Of a stretch of 64,000 bases of DNA, positions 50,802-60,092 are shown in pieces. Source of the DNA: Dehalobacter sp. DCA (lineage in GTDB: Bacteria; Bacillota; Desulfitobacteriia; Desulfitobacteriales; Syntrophobotulaceae). The stretch covers positions 620,001-684,000 of the forward strand of contig NC_018866.1 in NCBI RefSeq assembly GCF_000305775.1. The letters run 5' to 3'. The first letter of the stretch is position 1. Each line of letters opens with the position of its first letter. The notes under the pieces were generated by a model. The model worked only from the letters and a program-made list of their open reading frames with translations, did not search any database and had not been told where the DNA came from. The position numbers and the translations under genes are program-made.

Positions 50802-52748
50802 CTAATACCAGTATTGAGTATACCCGTCCCAATTATCAAATAAGATATAGAATGAGTCTCCGTAGTACATTCCACCGTTAAACGCATTCGAGCCATATCT
50901 TGTTTGAAGGTCATTCAGCATAGCCTCCAGCCACACAAGATAAGCATCGAAATGATTATCCAGCACGTCGGATTCAGCAGCATCTGTCTCAGGGGTAACC
51001 GTAAATACGATAAATGCACTTCCATCATGGGAAGTATCGGTATTACCCTGATAGGCAGTCACGGTAACGGCATATTTTATTGTTTGGCCAGCAATCACGT
51101 TTGTGCCGTAGGCATTCTGAATATAAGAAGCCATATTGGAAAAGACACTGTAAATGGCCGGGAGAATTTCCGGCAGCGTTTTATTAATATTCTCCGAGAG
51201 CATTGGTTTTAACAGGTTAATCGGAACCGCAAAGTTCAGGTTCTGGCCGCCATAATACACAGCAGCTGTGATACCAATGACTTTCCCCTGCTCATCCACC
51301 AGCGTCCCGCCGCTTGACCCGGAACTGATCGGGGCAGAAATCTGAATATATGTCGTTCCGTTAATATCTCTGGATTTTGTGCTGATTAAACCGTTGGATA
51401 TGGTATCCTCCAAGCCAAACGGGTTGCCGATCGCATAGATATTATCCCCGGTTTCAATCAGGCTGGAATCACCGAGGGAGACTGCAGTCAGTCCTGTCGC
51501 ACTTATTTTAAGTATTGCCAGATCGGTTGTTTCGTTATAGCTTAAGACCTTTTGGACATCATAGGATGTCCCTGCAGCGGTCTTTACTTTAGCACTGTAT
51601 GAGCCTTCAATTACATGGTAGTTCGTCGCGACTTTGCCGCTGGAATCAACAATAAACCCGCTGCCGCTCCCCAGAGCATTCCCGCTGCTGTCATAGGTCT
51701 CAATGTAAACGATAGAAGGGCTGACCTTGGCAAAGATCTCTTTGGCGGTTAAGGTTCCTCCCGTTTCAATCCCAAGGTAACTGTTGACCAGGGATGATGA
51801 AATTGCAGCTTCCCCGCCAAGTATATTCAGCTGTGTAATACTGGAGCTTAGGGCTGATAAGTAATTATTAATGCGGCTGTCCGATGTTTTTCCGGTCAAG
51901 ATGATCGGTGAGCTCAATTTGGCGGCATAGGATGAGCCTGCCAAGGCATCGGCAAAATTATTACCGGTTGCTAAAAATGTATTGCCAAAGGCATATTCGG
52001 ACTCAAAAGCTTTCAAAACCGCTAGATTTGTTGCGTAGCGGTCGGTGCCTTGAATGCGTGTCGGGCTTGGAAGCGCGTTGACGACTGAATCATTGATCTC
52101 AGCTGTATTGCCGATCACATAGGTTTGCTGAATACTGTTGCTTGCTACATATTGTTTCAGACTTTCACTGACCGTACTCTTGTCCACCAGGATCATTGGA
52201 ATTTGTTTTTTGCCGGCGTAGGATGAAACCGAAAGCGCATTCGGATAATCACCCCCGGGAGCGACGACAAGCATCCCAGATGTATTACCGATACGCTTGG
52301 CTATCTCAACCGAGGTATAATATCTGTCGTTTCCGGACAGTCGGGTAACTAAGATTCCCATCGACTTCAGCTGGGCTTCAACAGCCGTAGAAACGACAGC
52401 TGTTCCACCGACAATATAGACATTCTTTGTGCCAAGCGCAGTCAGCGTGGACTTCGTAACCGCCGTTAGACTATCTTTTTCCGTTAATAAGATCGGAGCA
52501 TTATATTTTGTTGCCAGAGGGGTTGACGCCAAGGCATCTGGAAAGTTGCTTCCGCAGGCGATTATCGCCCACTGTGAGCCGCCGGACCAACCTTCTTTGG
52601 CAATATTAGCGGCAGTGGTATATCGTGTATCCCCAGAAATCCGATGCGTAGAGATCGTGGATGACGCCAAAGCATCAGGGACAAATGCGCCCAGACATAA
52701 GATTAAAGTCAACAATACAAAAAAGCATCGCTTTGCGTATATTTTCAC
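50802..52748 (-). CDS. Secreted CWB2 cell-wall-binding protein fused to an HtrA-like serine protease
   Basis: A 648-residue exported protein. The signal peptide (CFFVLLTLILCLGAFVPDALA) is followed by three CWB2 repeats (about residues 35-325; RISGDTRYTTAANIA, RLSGNDRYYTSVEIA, RIQGTDRYATNLAVL), which bind anionic cell-wall polymers in Clostridia. A trypsin-like protease domain follows (about 340-530) with the triad His in TNYHVIE, Asp in TTDLAILK and Ser in GSSGGTL. A C-terminal ~120 residues of unknown type ends with NWDGYTQYWY. It probably cleaves or checks proteins at the cell surface. No PDZ domain is seen, unlike HtrA. Confidence 0.9.
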   Translation of the reverse strand: MKIYAKRCFFVLLTLILCLGAFVPDALASSTISTHRISGDTRYTTAANIAKEGWSGGSQWAIIACGSNFPDALASTPLATKYNAPILLTEKDSLTAVTKSTLTALGTKNVYIVGGTAVVSTAVEAQLKSMGILVTRLSGNDRYYTSVEIAKRIGNTSGMLVVAPGGDYPNALSVSSYAGKKQIPMILVDKSTVSESLKQYVASNSIQQTYVIGNTAEINDSVVNALPSPTRIQGTDRYATNLAVLKAFESEYAFGNTFLATGNNFADALAGSSYAAKLSSPIILTGKTSDSRINNYLSALSSSITQLNILGGEAAISSSLVNSYLGIETGGTLTAKEIFAKVSPSIVYIETYDSSGNALGSGSGFIVDSSGKVATNYHVIEGSYSAKVKTAAGTSYDVQKVLSYNETTDLAILKISATGLTAVSLGDSSLIETGDNIYAIGNPFGLEDTISNGLISTKSRDINGTTYIQISAPISSGSSGGTLVDEQGKVIGITAAVYYGGQNLNFAVPINLLKPMLSENINKTLPEILPAIYSVFSNMASYIQNAYGTNVIAGQTIKYAVTVTAYQGNTDTSHDGSAFIVFTVTPETDAAESDVLDNHFDAYLVWLEAMLNDLQTRYGSNAFNGGMYYGDSFYILFDNWDGYTQYWY

Positions 52749-54269: not shown

Positions 54270-55793
54270 ATGCATAGAAAATCATATGTTACCCGCATGC
54301 CCAATAAGACAGGAGCTTTTCTGCTCGCTTCCAAAATCATTGCCAAATACTGCGGCAATATTGTCCGAGTGAGCTACAATAAAGCGGTCGATCTTCACAT
54401 GCTGTTTCTGGATGTCGAGGCTACTGCAGAAAACCATCAAAAGATCGCCAAAGAACTCGAAACGGTCGGCTATCTAAAAAATGAACTCTCCGAAACACGC
54501 GTCATCGAGGTCAATATAAAAATCCCGGATCAGCCTGGTGCCGTACTGCCTGTCCTGAAAATCCTGGATCTTTATAATATTAATATTTCGTATCTAAACT
54601 CGAGTGCCAACGGTACACCCTATCAGGATTTCAAAATGGGCCTGCTAATCGAAAATCCGGATATGATTAAAATGCTGCTCAATGATATCAGCGCAGTCTA
54701 TCAGATTGATATCATCGAATATGATGATTTTGAAAAGAACTTGGACAATACGATTTTCTATATCCGGCTGGCGAATGAAATGCAGCATATCCTTTCCTTA
54801 AGCACAGCACAGACCATGGAATTCATCTCTGAATCAAACCGAATCCTCCAGATGCTGCAGGAGACCGGTGAGAGCCCCAAAAAAGTCTTTGGCTATATCC
54901 GTCGTTTTGCGTATTTTATCAGCAAGTACCGCGGCAGCCATTTCAGCGCCGACATCGATCAGGTCCAGATTAGCGAACAGGTCACACTGTACAGCATCCA
55001 GCCGCCCTGCGGCAGCAACACCTATGTGCTTGCTTCAGCTGAAGAACTTGTTTTGATTGATACCGGCTATGCAATCTATGCCGAAGAAATGTTCAAGATA
55101 TTCAAGGAGCTTTTTCCGGCCTGGGATACGCTGACTAAACGCGTCTTTATCACCCATGCCGATGTCGACCACTGCGGCCTGCTCTCCAAACTGGAAGGCA
55201 TACGTATCGGCTTAAACCAAAAGAGCGCCGACAGTCTACGGTGTCAAGCCGCCGGAATCCCCGACTACCGTGAAACCAGCGATCTGGGCTGGGGCTACAG
55301 CAAGCTCAGCCGGATCATCTCCGGCTATTCCCCGCCAAATCCCGCACAGTTCGAGGTACTTGACGTCGACTCCCCGACCCCGGCACCCGAAGAACACCAG
55401 GAACTGATCCCTATCGCGAAATTCACCGTTGCGGATCTGAAATTTCAGGTTCTCGAAGGCAGCGGCGGCCATCTTTACGGCGAGATGATCTTTGTCTGCG
55501 AAGAATACGGTCTGGTATTTACCGGAGATAACCTTGTAAATATCAGCGGCTTCTCCGAGGAAAGAGCCGAGTTCAATTCCCTGGCACCTTACCTGATGCG
55601 GAGTGTAAACATCGACTCGCAAAAAGCAACCGAGATGCGCAGTCAGATCATGCGGCTGCTGGGTGAGTTAGAAGACAAAAATAAAAAGCCCTGCCTCGTC
55701 TGCGGCGGGCATGGACCCATATCGGCACTGGAAAACGGGGAGCTTAAGGCTCTACAAAAGGCCAGGTTAAAACAGCCTCCAACTTGGTATTAA
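54270..55793 (+). CDS. ACT-ACT-metallo-beta-lactamase fold protein
   Basis: A 507-residue cytoplasmic protein. Two ACT domains occupy the first ~150 residues (MPNKTGAFLLASKIIAK and IPDQPGAVLPVLKILDLYNI are the ligand-binding strand-helix units), a helical linker follows, and residues ~245-500 form a metallo-beta-lactamase domain with THADVDHCG, a GGHLYGE stretch, FTGDNLV and a final GGHGP. ACT domains usually bind amino acids, so this looks like an amino-acid-controlled hydrolase or oxidoreductase; the reaction is unknown. Its 3' end overlaps the ComA-like gene by 50 bp, tail to tail. Confidence 0.78.
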   Translation: MHRKSYVTRMPNKTGAFLLASKIIAKYCGNIVRVSYNKAVDLHMLFLDVEATAENHQKIAKELETVGYLKNELSETRVIEVNIKIPDQPGAVLPVLKILDLYNINISYLNSSANGTPYQDFKMGLLIENPDMIKMLLNDISAVYQIDIIEYDDFEKNLDNTIFYIRLANEMQHILSLSTAQTMEFISESNRILQMLQETGESPKKVFGYIRRFAYFISKYRGSHFSADIDQVQISEQVTLYSIQPPCGSNTYVLASAEELVLIDTGYAIYAEEMFKIFKELFPAWDTLTKRVFITHADVDHCGLLSKLEGIRIGLNQKSADSLRCQAAGIPDYRETSDLGWGYSKLSRIISGYSPPNPAQFEVLDVDSPTPAPEEHQELIPIAKFTVADLKFQVLEGSGGHLYGEMIFVCEEYGLVFTGDNLVNISGFSEERAEFNSLAPYLMRSVNIDSQKATEMRSQIMRLLGELEDKNKKPCLVCGGHGPISALENGELKALQKARLKQPPTWY

Positions 55794-56394
55794 CGCCAAA
55801 TTTCAGAAGGATGATATTAATCCGTTCACTGAGAACACGGGCCGACACGCCTAAAATGGAAGTAATCTCCTTGTTGGACAACCTCTTGGCCAATAATCGC
55901 ATGATTTCTTTTTCTTCAGGAGTTAGTATTTTTTCAAGAATTTCAACAGGCTTAACTGGAAAGTGCATATCATCAATGTCTATCTGGTTTTTAGGAAAAG
56001 CTAAAGGACTTTGATAAAAGTATGTACCGCCGTCCATGACCTTTAGAATGGCCTGAACCACTTCCCGGATATGCAAATCCTTTATGATTACCCCCTCGGC
56101 TCCTTTATTCTTTGCTGCAGTGACATACCCTTCCTGATTAAATTCAGTCATCAAAATGATTTTTACTGTGGGCGCAATTCGTTGGATTTGTTCGATCAAA
56201 GAGATTCCGTTGCCATCATTCAGATGGATATCCAGCAATACGACATCAGGCTGAGATTGACGGACAAAATCAAGGCATTCTTCCCCATTTTTTACAATTC
56301 CCACTGTTTCAATTTGCGGCTCCATGGAAAAAAGGAATTTGGTATTCTCCGCAAAAGGCCCGTGACTGTCAACGATTAAAACTTTAACGTTCAT
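55744..56394 (-). CDS. comA: ComA-like LuxR-type response regulator
   Basis: A 216-residue NarL/FixJ regulator, the length of Bacillus ComA (about 214). The receiver domain has phospho-acceptor Asp in VVLLDIHLNDGNG near residue 55 and Lys in GVIIKD near residue 106. The C-terminal LuxR HTH is LTPEEKEIMRLLAKRLSNKE followed by LKFGVNTKLEAVL. It lies 26 bp after the ComP-like kinase on the same strand and is the inferred output regulator of the pheromone system. Recognition as ComA rests on context; the HTH alone is generic. Its targets are unknown. Confidence 0.72.
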   Translation of the reverse strand: MNVKVLIVDSHGPFAENTKFLFSMEPQIETVGIVKNGEECLDFVRQSQPDVVLLDIHLNDGNGISLIEQIQRIAPTVKIILMTEFNQEGYVTAAKNKGAEGVIIKDLHIREVVQAILKVMDGGTYFYQSPLAFPKNQIDIDDMHFPVKPVEILEKILTPEEKEIMRLLAKRLSNKEITSILGVSARVLSERINIILLKFGVNTKLEAVLTWPFVEP

Positions 56395-56420
56395 TTAACC
56401 CACCTAACTTCAATTGTATC

Positions 56421-58766
56421 TTAATATACCGGAATCGTAGCTTTAAGCGTTGTACCTCTCTGAAAGCCGGAACTGATCAGCATTTGTCCCCCTAGGCTCT
56501 CAATACGTTCTTTCATGATTGCTAAACCGAAATGTGCCCCGCCTAACGATCCTTTTTCAAGTTGATCAGGATCGAAACCTTGTCCATTATCCTTCACCGT
56601 TAATTCTAATTTATCTCCACTTAGTTCAACACGGACTGTCTGCTTCTTTGAACCGGAATAACGCAGTGAATTGATTATTGCTTTTTGTATAAAGCGGTAA
56701 GCGGCTATTTCGACGTCTTCTGCAAAACGATCATTTAACTCAATACCTTCTGTTTCCAGTATAATGAAATTTGGTTCCTTTAGCATAATATCCTGAGACA
56801 GCGATTGTATGGCAGGAATTAAACCCAAATCCGATAAAACCAGCGGACGCAAATTGTGAACCGTTTGATTCAGATCATAGTTCAGATCATTGATCTGATT
56901 TCTGATCCGGGAAACCACCTGTTGGGTCGTATCATCACCGAGATTTTCTTTTTCCAATATTTTCAGCAGGCGGCTTATATCCAGAGCACTATGTACCGGG
57001 CCATCCAATATTTCTTTGGCCAGACTTCCTCTGTCTTGCTCAATCATCCGAATTAAGGAATTTGTTATACCCTGAAGTTCCCAGTTTCTTCTCCGGGAGC
57101 ACCAGGATGTTAGGGTCAAGTTATTAATTTCCTTGGTTAGGTCACCGATGACGAGCAGCATCAGCACTTCGTAAGCCAGCTGACCGGCAAGTAAAGTAAG
57201 AAAAGGTAATTCGGACTTTTCGAATTTGATATGAGAATAGCGGTGCCCAAAGAAAATGCCACAAGTGGAATTATGGGAGACAAACGGCACAAAAATCTCA
57301 GCGGGACAATCGTCCGAAAGAAATCTTGCTTCCAGATCTTGTATTTGGTTTCTACGAAAATACGCTTCTAATTCGGACTGTTCTTGGTGGTTTTTCCTAA
57401 ACCGGCCAACCGCTTTTCTCAAGCAACCGGTCTGTGCATTTTCAACAATGATGAACACCCCGTCAATTCCTAGCTTCTTGATTGCTTCTTCAAAAATGTG
57501 GTCTTCACAGATAAGGGAGGTTATGCTGTTGTTGAGCTCTGTAACCCTATGTTTTAGGCTGATATTTGTTTGGAAAAAGCTAAACCTTTCCAATAATTTA
57601 CTGATAATTAGTCGGAGAAGATAAAAGCAAACAAAAAACAACAGGCATAGCACAAATGTTGCCAAATAGGATTCAGCGCTGACTATCTTGATAATTTTAC
57701 CCAAGTATAAAAAATAATGGACAATAATGCTTAAAATGAATGCTGCAAGAAAGTTTGTGATTATTGTTTTATATATCCTGCGGCTGTCTGGTAAGTATTT
57801 GTTCACGATAACGTAATATAAGGAAAACGGAATAGCCAAAATGAATAAATAACTCACTTCAGTAAAAAGCTGCTGCAAATAAAAAATTTGTGGAAGAGCA
57901 ACAAACAATATACTTGGAAAGAAGCCAATTACGATTCCCGATAAGAGAATTCCAGCCTCATTTTTTTTCGGTTGTTCTTTGGGCAAAAGGAATGCTTGGC
58001 ACAGATTCCATACTGAAAATATGATACCAATAATCATATTAGACAAAGCCAGTTCTCTTAGTAAGTCTGGTAGGTGTATGAAGCCCCAGGAGTGTAAAGC
58101 AGTTAGAATCGAAATCACTGTAAAGCAAGCAAATGTTATTTTACTCCCAATTGATTTCGTTTTATTATTCAATAGAAAATTTGAAGTAAAAACAATCAGA
58201 AGCACAGGAGCCAACGAGAATGTAATATATTCTAATTCCTTAGCCAAAGGTAAAGCACACCCGGAAGCATGTGTGAGAACAATTGCCACCGCAAATAGCC
58301 AAAGCAGCCAAAATAAAAGACGCACTTCTTTCAAAAAAGGCCTCTTATACCAGGCTATAAAGCCCACTAACCAAAAAACAAGACCTATAATATACAATGG
58401 AGTTTGGCTTAAAACCATGATCCAATCGGGCAGATTTTCTATTGTAATTTGCTGTACTGTCGAACTATCTGCTGTACAAAATTTAATTGTGTGAGCGCGT
58501 TCCAGTAATCCCCATTTATGTGTCGAACCAAATTTTTCCGGGTCCATCCCATCAACTTTCAGGATCTGATCCCCAAGCCGGATACCGGATTGATATCCTT
58601 CACCATGAGGATCACAGATAGTAACCAGCCAGTTACCATCAATGTTTTTAAGGTTAATACCGATATAGGGTTGATTCAGACAAGTAACAAAATAAACAAG
58701 CCCCAGCACAATAAAGAAGATACTCGCAATATAATATATTTTCCGATTAATAAATCTATCCCACAA
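56421..58766 (-). CDS. comP: ComP-like multi-spanning PDZ histidine kinase
   Basis: A 781-residue sensor kinase, close to the size of ComP. An N-terminal helix (about 10-30), an outside PDZ-like domain (about 33-110; GYQSGIRLGDQILKVDG) and then about nine membrane segments to residue ~400 are followed by a GAF-like domain, a HisKA_3 dimerisation region and an HATPase_c domain (AIINSLRYSGS, DNGQGFD, HFGLAIMKERIESLGG). In HisKA_3 the phospho-acceptor His is expected in an ELHD-type motif; here the residues are EILD (Leu587), and the nearest His is His592. The gene overlaps comQ by 11 bp. It should sense the processed ComX-like peptide. Confidence 0.75.
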   Translation of the reverse strand: MWDRFINRKIYYIASIFFIVLGLVYFVTCLNQPYIGINLKNIDGNWLVTICDPHGEGYQSGIRLGDQILKVDGMDPEKFGSTHKWGLLERAHTIKFCTADSSTVQQITIENLPDWIMVLSQTPLYIIGLVFWLVGFIAWYKRPFLKEVRLLFWLLWLFAVAIVLTHASGCALPLAKELEYITFSLAPVLLIVFTSNFLLNNKTKSIGSKITFACFTVISILTALHSWGFIHLPDLLRELALSNMIIGIIFSVWNLCQAFLLPKEQPKKNEAGILLSGIVIGFFPSILFVALPQIFYLQQLFTEVSYLFILAIPFSLYYVIVNKYLPDSRRIYKTIITNFLAAFILSIIVHYFLYLGKIIKIVSAESYLATFVLCLLFFVCFYLLRLIISKLLERFSFFQTNISLKHRVTELNNSITSLICEDHIFEEAIKKLGIDGVFIIVENAQTGCLRKAVGRFRKNHQEQSELEAYFRRNQIQDLEARFLSDDCPAEIFVPFVSHNSTCGIFFGHRYSHIKFEKSELPFLTLLAGQLAYEVLMLLVIGDLTKEINNLTLTSWCSRRRNWELQGITNSLIRMIEQDRGSLAKEILDGPVHSALDISRLLKILEKENLGDDTTQQVVSRIRNQINDLNYDLNQTVHNLRPLVLSDLGLIPAIQSLSQDIMLKEPNFIILETEGIELNDRFAEDVEIAAYRFIQKAIINSLRYSGSKKQTVRVELSGDKLELTVKDNGQGFDPDQLEKGSLGGAHFGLAIMKERIESLGGQMLISSGFQRGTTLKATIPVY

Positions 58767-59703
58767 GTTTTATCATCTTCTCCTTTTGTTTTTCCGGAAC
58801 AGGAATTTCCTCCAGATTTTCCAGGGCTTTTTGACGGTAAATCTCAAACATCACGGTGCAGTACTGCGCAACCCCTTCTTCGGCAGCAATTTGTTTCAAC
58901 TGTTGTTTTTCTTTATCTCCAAATGCTTGTGGTCCTTCGCCGTTAGTTTGCGTTAATCTTATAAACTGTCCGGCTGTTTCGCCTTTGAGCGTATGACATA
59001 AATATACGTACGGCAGGGTTTTCTTATTGCTCACAAAATCTTTCTTATTTTCAAAATCTAGAAAATCGTTGAGATCGTTACGGATTTGATTCATAATCCC
59101 GAAATTGAGACCAAACTCGGCCATTGTTTCTGCAAGCGGTTCCGTAGCGTTTCCCAGAATGGCCCCTACCTTACAAGCACAGGCCGTAATACTACCTGAC
59201 TTTTGCCTTACCATATCAAAGTATTGTTCCAGCGATACCTGGGGGCTGTCCGCATAGAGAAACTCCTGGAACTGTCCGTTACTGGCCGTGATTCCCATAC
59301 GCTGCAGCGCTGTACAGACTTCCCTGTAAATCCTGTCATCCGGTATTGCAGCTATAGCTTCAAAACTAAGCATTAAAAGACAATTCGCCAGATTAATGGC
59401 ATTGGCCTCGGGGATCCGGCGCCAGGGCAAATCCTCATGATCCTTGTCCTGAATATCGTCAAAAATATCCGCTGCCAGGGCAAAGAACTCCATACCGATC
59501 CCCCCTGGCAGCGTAGCTTCCGCATCCCCGCCTGTACACTCACAGCTCATACTGGTCAGATGAGCCCATTTAAATAGCTCACCCGTTGGGCTGTCGGCAT
59601 TAAGCGAAGTTTGGATCATCCGGACCATTTCTGCACTGAGTCCGTACATTTTTAAAATTCTATCAATTTCCGTATAAATAATCTGATCAAACTGAAGATT
59701 CAT
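58756..59703 (-). CDS. comQ: ComQ-like isoprenyl transferase (polyprenyl synthetase family)
   Basis: A 315-residue protein of the isoprenoid synthase fold. The first Asp-rich motif is FDDIQD at residues 81-86, preceded by GGIGMEFFALAADI; the second, less perfect, is NQIRNDLNDF near residue 210. Bacillus ComQ (about 300 residues) uses such a site to attach a farnesyl or geranyl group to a Trp of the ComX precursor. That role is inferred from the gene directly upstream, which encodes a small peptide ending in Trp-Gln. The start ATG is 4 bp after that gene's stop. An ordinary polyprenyl diphosphate synthase is the alternative, but the neighbours argue against it. Confidence 0.8.
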   Translation of the reverse strand: MNLQFDQIIYTEIDRILKMYGLSAEMVRMIQTSLNADSPTGELFKWAHLTSMSCECTGGDAEATLPGGIGMEFFALAADIFDDIQDKDHEDLPWRRIPEANAINLANCLLMLSFEAIAAIPDDRIYREVCTALQRMGITASNGQFQEFLYADSPQVSLEQYFDMVRQKSGSITACACKVGAILGNATEPLAETMAEFGLNFGIMNQIRNDLNDFLDFENKKDFVSNKKTLPYVYLCHTLKGETAGQFIRLTQTNGEGPQAFGDKEKQQLKQIAAEEGVAQYCTVMFEIYRQKALENLEEIPVPEKQKEKMIKLVG

Positions 59704-59707
59704 TGTA

Positions 59708-59896
59708 TTATTGCCACGTAGCTAGAGGACCTACTTCTAATGCAATAGTACCCCCGGAAACTTCATCCCTGAAAACAACTCTCTGAATTACAGAGAACTC
59801 AGTAGGTTTAACTTTACGGTGTTTTTCCTGGGTTAACACGTTCTTGGGATCTTTGACACATTCATGAACCAAATTGGCAATACCTTCATAGTTCAT
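59708..59896 (-). CDS. comX: ComX-like pheromone precursor
   Basis: A 62-residue peptide starting MNYEGIANLVHECVKDPKN and ending GPLATWQ. Size (ComX is about 55-75), helical N-terminus, absence of a signal peptide, and a Trp next to the C-terminus fit a precursor whose Trp (residue 61) is isoprenylated by ComQ and which is then cut and exported. The ATG at 59896 is preferred because AAAGGGG lies 8 nt upstream; an upstream in-frame start at 59914 is less likely. Only 4 bp separate it from comQ. It stands before comQ, whereas in Bacillus comX follows comQ. The mature peptide would be a short C-terminal piece around LATWQ. Confidence 0.68.
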   Translation of the reverse strand: MNYEGIANLVHECVKDPKNVLTQEKHRKVKPTEFSVIQRVVFRDEVSGGTIALEVGPLATWQ

Positions 59897-60092
59897 CCTG
59901 AAAACCCCTTTCATAATAAAAAAATTTACCGTTTGTCTTACTGAAAGTAGTCTTTAGTCAAAGTTTTCATTCATTCTGGTACATTTCCTTCAGCTTGATC
60001 AATTATAAGGGAAATTCTTCAAAAAGCACCATATTCCTTTAGCGAATAATGGGATGTTTTGTCGAAGTTTACAATTTGATCCATGACAGTAC

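Follow-up and report, generated by a model that had tools for sequence, protein, structure and literature searches.

We describe a cluster of four minus-strand genes, X-Q-P-A, in a stretch of 64,000 nucleotides (the window; bases 620001-684000) of the 3.07 Mb single-contig genome of Dehalobacter sp. DCA. Judging from its sequence, the system is a sister lineage of the quorum-sensing system ComQXPA with the gene order X-Q-P-A, found in Dehalobacter, Desulfosporosinus and relatives. Gene order, the match to the ComX family PF05952 and the phosphoacceptor all fail the definition of canonical ComQXPA, and we therefore speak of a sister lineage that is ComQXPA-like up to the receptor. We put at roughly two in three the probability that X-Q-P-A is a pheromone operon of this unannotated lineage, probably one of the end of growth, whose receptor P most likely signals without phosphotransfer of its own.

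All four open reading frames (ORFs) were confirmed, as tightly packed as a preliminary description of this DNA had stated, and they form one operon of ComQXPA-like parts. Its first gene encodes the putative ComX-like pheromone precursor X (62 residues ending in PLATWQ; 59708..59896). It is followed by Q, a predicted ComQ-like tryptophan prenyltransferase of 315 residues (58756..59703; Pfam polyprenyl_synt, E 9e-22), P, a ComP-like receptor of 781 residues with a TTG start (56421..58766; HATPase, E 1e-14), and A, a NarL/LuxR-type response regulator of 216 residues (55744..56394; Response_reg, E 3e-22; GerE, E 2e-7). X and Q are separated by 4 nt, Q and P overlap by 11 nt, and a gap of 26 nt lies between P and A. 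An AGGGG ribosome-binding site precedes X; an in-frame ATG six codons upstream is a less likely start because the conserved beginning of the protein is MN[YF].

In the DNA upstream of the Q loci that we fetched, a small ORF of 58-66 residues stands directly before Q at 30 loci, mostly at a distance of 2-19 nt and with a ribosome-binding site at each of them; these lengths lie within the 52-73 residues that define a ComX precursor. Tryptophan is the penultimate residue in 28 of these proteins and the last one in two, and their consensus reads MNYExIAxLVHELVKNP...E...IQxVFSxxEVSG......PLxxWx. The window X ends in VGPLATWQ, and a single copy in the genome was detected with the X profile (E 5e-25). 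Thus, the window X is not a chance frame, since all 30 loci keep it immediately before Q, with the Trp at position -2 or -1. The Trp second from the end, taken earlier as a departure from Bacillus, was indeed seen but is the rule in the lineage, and it falls within the range accepted by ComQ in vitro (second to fourth from the end; PMC5331326). The predicted pheromone sequence is new, as had been proposed.

PF05952 gave sub-threshold matches in 3 of 28 relatives of X (best E 0.017). A profile-profile comparison of X with 10 canonical ComX sequences yielded a probability of 92.5% (E 4.7e-7; leader alone, E 2.8e-6), and none of 200 column shuffles reached the full-length or the leader score. Moreover, the X of one genome (G166) was found by the X profile (E 4e-11) and also scored 33.3 bits against PF05952, above the cut-off, and therefore bridges window-type X and ComX. 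As judged from these comparisons, X is a remote homologue of ComX. No NHLP-type (nitrile hydratase leader peptide) model of Pfam or NCBIfam, the leader type of PalXQ, matched X, and its leader aligns with that of ComX. Direct homology of X to the Paenibacillus precursor was weak (probability 9.5%); the same precursor matches ComX well.

The window Q carries the first Asp-rich motif (FARM, DDxxD) as DDIQD (residues 82-86), and DDxQD is invariant in the lineage. At the place of the second Asp-rich motif it has the pseudo-SARM QIRND (206-210, in the context QIRNDLND); the lineage form is QIxND, its N and D being invariant, and 12 housekeeping synthases of the same class or phylum carry DD where the lineage has ND. 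ComQ requires NDxxx or GDxxx as this second motif, Trp prenylation being impaired when Asp stands first (PMC5331326). A conserved Gln preceding the motif has been implicated in Trp recognition (PMC13290415); it is present in the window Q, and the housekeeping enzymes have Gln there as well. In a maximum-likelihood tree with ComQs from Bacillus, Priestia, Lysinibacillus, Anoxybacillus, Paenibacillus and Desulfosporosinus (PalQ left out), the housekeeping enzymes split from the ComQ side at 100/99. The clade of the window's Q (82/78) is sister to all sampled ComQs, with the inner order among these ComQs unsure because of some long branches. The predicted model of Q (predicted local distance difference test, pLDDT, of 90) matches folds of trans-isoprenyl diphosphate synthases (trans-IDS) in Foldseek, with the tryptophan prenyltransferase Ord1 among the top matches. 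From the active-site residues and the phylogeny we infer that Q is a ComQ-like tryptophan prenyltransferase. A phage or plasmid origin was rejected, as phage, plasmid and viral-contig collections held no close relative of Q.

A tblastn search with Q (101 relatives) gave ~30 close homologues at 41-84% identity and a second group at ~30%. Lineage members named from GTDB genomes are Desulfosporosinus species and metagenome-assembled genomes of Peptococcaceae/Desulfitobacteriaceae. Nearly all intact loci of the lineage show the order X-Q-P-A with overlapping Q and P, so that the departure from the Bacillus order noted earlier is a trait of the lineage; ComQXPA is defined by Q-X-P-A on one strand. 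Among 398 genomes of the phylum, the X profile found X in 10, three of them in other families, and two of these three have the order X-Q-A-P (L158 in G166 and L159 in G378).

A PF05952 search across the class returned eight canonical loci, in which ComX, distinct from window-type X, lies downstream of ComQ; in the seven of them that were examined, ComQ shares ~29% identity with the window's Q. Both systems reside together in G010 (probably Syntrophobotulus), G037, G040, G050, G057 and G066. ComQXPA has been known in Clostridiales since 2014, when a census named Desulfosporosinus and Syntrophobotulus with comX between comQ and comP (PMC4008528). Judging from the position of comX and the genera, we infer that the canonical loci found here are those of that census. 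The preliminary description was right to see a ComQXPA-like system in Clostridia, and it belongs to a different lineage from the canonical loci, but the class of system is not new there (Dogsa 2014, PMC4008528). In the open-access literature we found no prior description of an X-Q-P-A lineage, of ComXQPA or of quorum sensing in Dehalobacter, and the two Dehalobacter genome papers mention neither quorum sensing nor pheromones; the lineage appears to be undescribed in the open literature.

Other arrangements were seen alongside. In Chengkuizengella and Paenibacillus (L118, L120, L121, L122, L125) a ComQ-like gene directly follows the response-regulator gene (P-A-Q where P was seen); no evident ComX was found at these loci, and their precursor may be unlike known ones. 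Four Paenibacillus loci (L115, L116, L117, L124) are Q-X-P-A with an X ending in W-G or W-S, hence with a penultimate Trp, one scanned X among them falling just under the PF05952 cut-off (24.6 against 25 bits). L047/L101 (G041) is an orphan Q with intact motifs and no adjacent X, P or A, and L052/L107 (G035) and L069/L119 (G065) are decaying copies with a broken Q and a truncated P. D. restrictus (G001) holds a broken second system (L156; G001:C1:976500-989000), an X ending in ESWM without Q, followed by a P split by an insertion.

P consists of a first transmembrane (TM) helix, a PDZ-like first outer loop, nine further TM helices (~10 in total), a linker, a region resembling the dimerization and histidine phosphotransfer (DHp) domain, and the HATPase domain. 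This is the architecture of ComP (compare PMC9620489). The PDZ matches (33-80) are weak and alone below the cut-off; homology of P to canonical ComP extends across almost the entire protein (E 1e-25 to 1e-36). The multi-TM kinase described earlier is therefore a ComP-like receptor with a HATPase domain, but its phosphoacceptor His, part of the definition of ComP, is replaced by Leu587, the H-box reading EILD instead of EIHD. The motif E-[IL]-H-D is replaced by EILD in four Dehalobacter, EISD in L032 and EICA in L033-L034, and these seven His-less loci form one clade of the Q tree (100/100). L044 has EIYD, independently of this clade; elsewhere in the lineage, and in every canonical ComP, the His is retained. 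In Bacillus ComP, where this residue is His571, H571A abolishes kinase activity and H625A does not (PMC9620489). The N-box of the window P reads QK instead of QE, and its Glu is changed to Lys in 5 of the 7 His-less loci.

The window A has a receiver and a GerE helix-turn-helix domain and keeps the phospho-Asp (LLD), Thr and Lys. It reads VDSH instead of VDDH, one acidic-pocket Asp being lost and the DD pair being DS. A in the same seven loci shows VDSH or ADGH and an altered recognition helix. Thus, with P lacking the His that is obligatory in Bacillus ComP and A lacking one acidic-pocket Asp, the canonical phosphorelay cannot run as drawn, and the sequences do not support a working quorum-sensing system by phosphorelay. 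Judging from these residues, this Dehalobacter branch must either sense the signal by some unusual route or have ceased to sense it. DivL provides a precedent for pseudo-histidine kinases (PMC4211667).

Upstream of X, on the minus strand, lie an exact Spo0A box TTCGACA (60060..60066) and a sigma-H-type promoter, AAAGGAATA-N11-GAAGAAT (60014..60040), which matches the full consensus at 13 of 13 scored positions (shuffles 0/200), the promoter region being perfect throughout (60066-60014). The same arrangement recurs at 14 of the 30 loci, which are related and so do not represent 14 independent events: a Spo0A box with 0-1 mismatch precedes a sigma-H-type -35 (RNAGGAWWW) by 25-26 nt, and the -10 (RNNGAAT) follows after 11-12 nt. 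Per locus, 0 or 1 of 500 shuffles reached the joint score, and the spacing of box and promoter persists although the sequences are otherwise widely different. The genome encodes two Spo0A proteins above the family cut-off (G000:C1:467179-467970; 864334-865119) and SigH; to our knowledge, spores have not been reported in the genus. A palindromic A-binding site was looked for upstream of X, and no conserved candidate was seen.

Compared with D. restrictus, the operon is a mosaic. Identity is ~95% in the promoter, ~73% in X, mostly 83-93% in Q and 55-68% in the sensor half of P, rising to mostly 93-100% in the kinase half of P, ~89-99% in A and 93-98% in the downstream flank; the upstream gene also differs. 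The synonymous divergence dS is 1.51 in the sensor half of P against 0.04 in the kinase half. A comparable mosaic pattern is known for comQXP pherotypes in Bacillus. ComX and the N-terminus of ComP have been described as variable (PMC4008528). The pattern indicates that recombination has replaced the specificity segment, and this speaks against a dead locus. All genes of the seven-locus subclade are open, and with ratios of nonsynonymous to synonymous substitution (dN/dS) of ~0.13-0.50 they are, as judged from sequence, under purifying selection.

Taken together, we propose the following mechanism. The conserved promoter suggests that Spo0A~P and sigma-H would drive transcription of the operon. 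X would be made as a 62-residue precursor whose Trp61 is probably prenylated by Q with a geranyl or farnesyl group, as its ComQ-specific active-site residues and phylogeny suggest, and the few C-terminal residues around PLATWQ may then be cut out and exported as the pheromone. P would bind it through the PDZ-like outer loop and the membrane domain, consistent with its ComP architecture and with its divergence in step with X and Q. Neither in this genome nor in six relatives can P autophosphorylate at the usual His, A has lost part of its Mg/acidic pocket, and P most likely acts as a ligand-gated pseudokinase, either binding or releasing A or modulating phosphate that another kinase supplies. 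That Dehalobacter and its nearest relatives hold a phosphorylation-independent (or phosphate-borrowing) ComP-ComA branch with a pseudokinase receptor and an atypical regulator, still diversifying into pherotypes, is a tentative proposal to which we give somewhat less than an even chance.

Several points weigh against the reading as a pheromone operon with a receptor signalling without phosphotransfer. No Pfam or NCBIfam model, PF05952 included, matches the window X. That P and A have both lost catalytic residues could mark the first step of decay; dN/dS below 1 between close species is compatible with a recent loss of function, and transfer without present selection can also produce mosaic sequence. 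In D. restrictus (L031), a transposase of 429 residues, named as IS110-type from its sequence and not by profile search, separates P from A (~1.8 kb). Together with the broken X-P locus without Q in the same genome, this insertion keeps decay a live rival: the Dehalobacter branch would still make the signal while losing its reception, and the system would no longer control anything there. The broken or orphan copies elsewhere (L052, L069, L047) also fit. The P genes of all seven loci are full-length (781-785 codons) and A is intact as well, across three genera and at dN/dS of ~0.15-0.26; with the conserved promoter and the pherotype-like mosaic this speaks against such a locus, and we consider decay unlikely. 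The phosphorelay might also still work, through a moved phosphosite in P or through phosphorylation of A by another kinase. All four Dehalobacter P proteins have His637 of the second H-box, which the nearest relatives lack; P keeps its ATP-binding boxes and A its phosphorylation residues, and the genome, which has no second ComP-like receptor, contains one other related kinase (568964-569584). However, the equivalent second His of Bacillus ComP is dispensable and cannot replace His571 (PMC9620489), P of L032-L034 has neither His, and both the N-box change and the altered pocket of A stand against it. His591 was rejected as the new site, as it occurs only in the window P and is Gln in the other three Dehalobacter. 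We hold a working relay of this kind to be improbable.

Two further readings fare worse. PalQ/PalX has been described as biosynthesis of a ribosomally synthesized and post-translationally modified peptide (PMC10853753), and the prenylated peptide could be a secreted lipopeptide (bacteriocin or surfactant-like), as PalX-type peptides perhaps are, and no signal, with P and A sensing its effect. The operon, however, contains no exporter, immunity or protease gene, P is ComP-like from end to end, and its sensor half has diverged in parallel with X, which makes this very unlikely. The best family matches of the window Q are polyprenyl synthetases, as would suit a housekeeping or terpene-type synthase next to a chance small ORF. 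Q is set apart from such enzymes by the 100/99 split and its NDxxx motif, and X by its conservation across loci and its profile matches, so that this reading is refuted and keeps a negligible probability. The preliminary description had named a Q grouping with housekeeping synthases and a small frame not conserved among relatives as outcomes that would count against it, and neither was found.

The pheromone reading would add to prenylated-peptide signalling a second lineage, parallel to the first and overlooked by annotation (no model finds the window X), with some 30 new predicted pheromone sequences and members that include organohalide-respiring Dehalobacter used in bioremediation. The conserved Spo0A box and sigma-H promoter offer a testable input. 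Moreover, since one branch has lost phosphotransfer residues and a sister branch with an intact His can serve as control, it can be asked directly if a ComP-type receptor needs autophosphorylation in order to signal. Elsewhere in the window, ~3 kb downstream of the operon (50802-52748), a gene encodes a secreted protein in which three CWB2 repeats, which bind the cell wall, are combined with a trypsin-like protease domain. A scan for the Pfam dehalogenase family gave only one marginal match and two partial matches below cut-off.

With ComQXPA of the Bacillus subtilis group the system shares the same four parts at similar lengths, the FARM and an NDxxx/GDxxx pseudo-SARM in Q, a precursor of 50-73 residues with a C-terminal Trp, a P with 10 TM helices and a PDZ-like outer loop, and a pherotype-like polymorphism of X, Q and the sensor half of P. 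It differs in its order (Q-X-P-A in Bacillus), in a window X below PF05952 detection, in a Q only ~30% identical, in the position of the Trp (-2/-1 against -3/-4 in Bacillus) and, in the window's branch, in a P without the phosphoacceptor His and an A without one acidic-pocket residue. The canonical comQXPA loci of Desulfosporosinus and Syntrophobotulus are of the same class and occur in several of the same genomes, and both Qs have DDxQD and QIxND; unlike the window lineage, these loci are Q-X-P-A, with a PF05952-positive ComX ending in W and a ComQ ~29% identical. PalXQ of Paenibacillus alvei likewise combines a trans-IDS-like enzyme that prenylates the C-terminal Trp of its precursor (predicted for the window) with a linked histidine kinase, but in PalX the leader is of the NHLP type and PalQ clusters on its own (PMC10853753), whereas the window X is ComX-like and Q falls on the ComQ side. 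Finally, like the pseudo-histidine kinase DivL of Caulobacter, P keeps the histidine kinase fold with its phosphoacceptor His replaced, although DivL is not a pheromone receptor and belongs to an unrelated pathway (PMC4211667).

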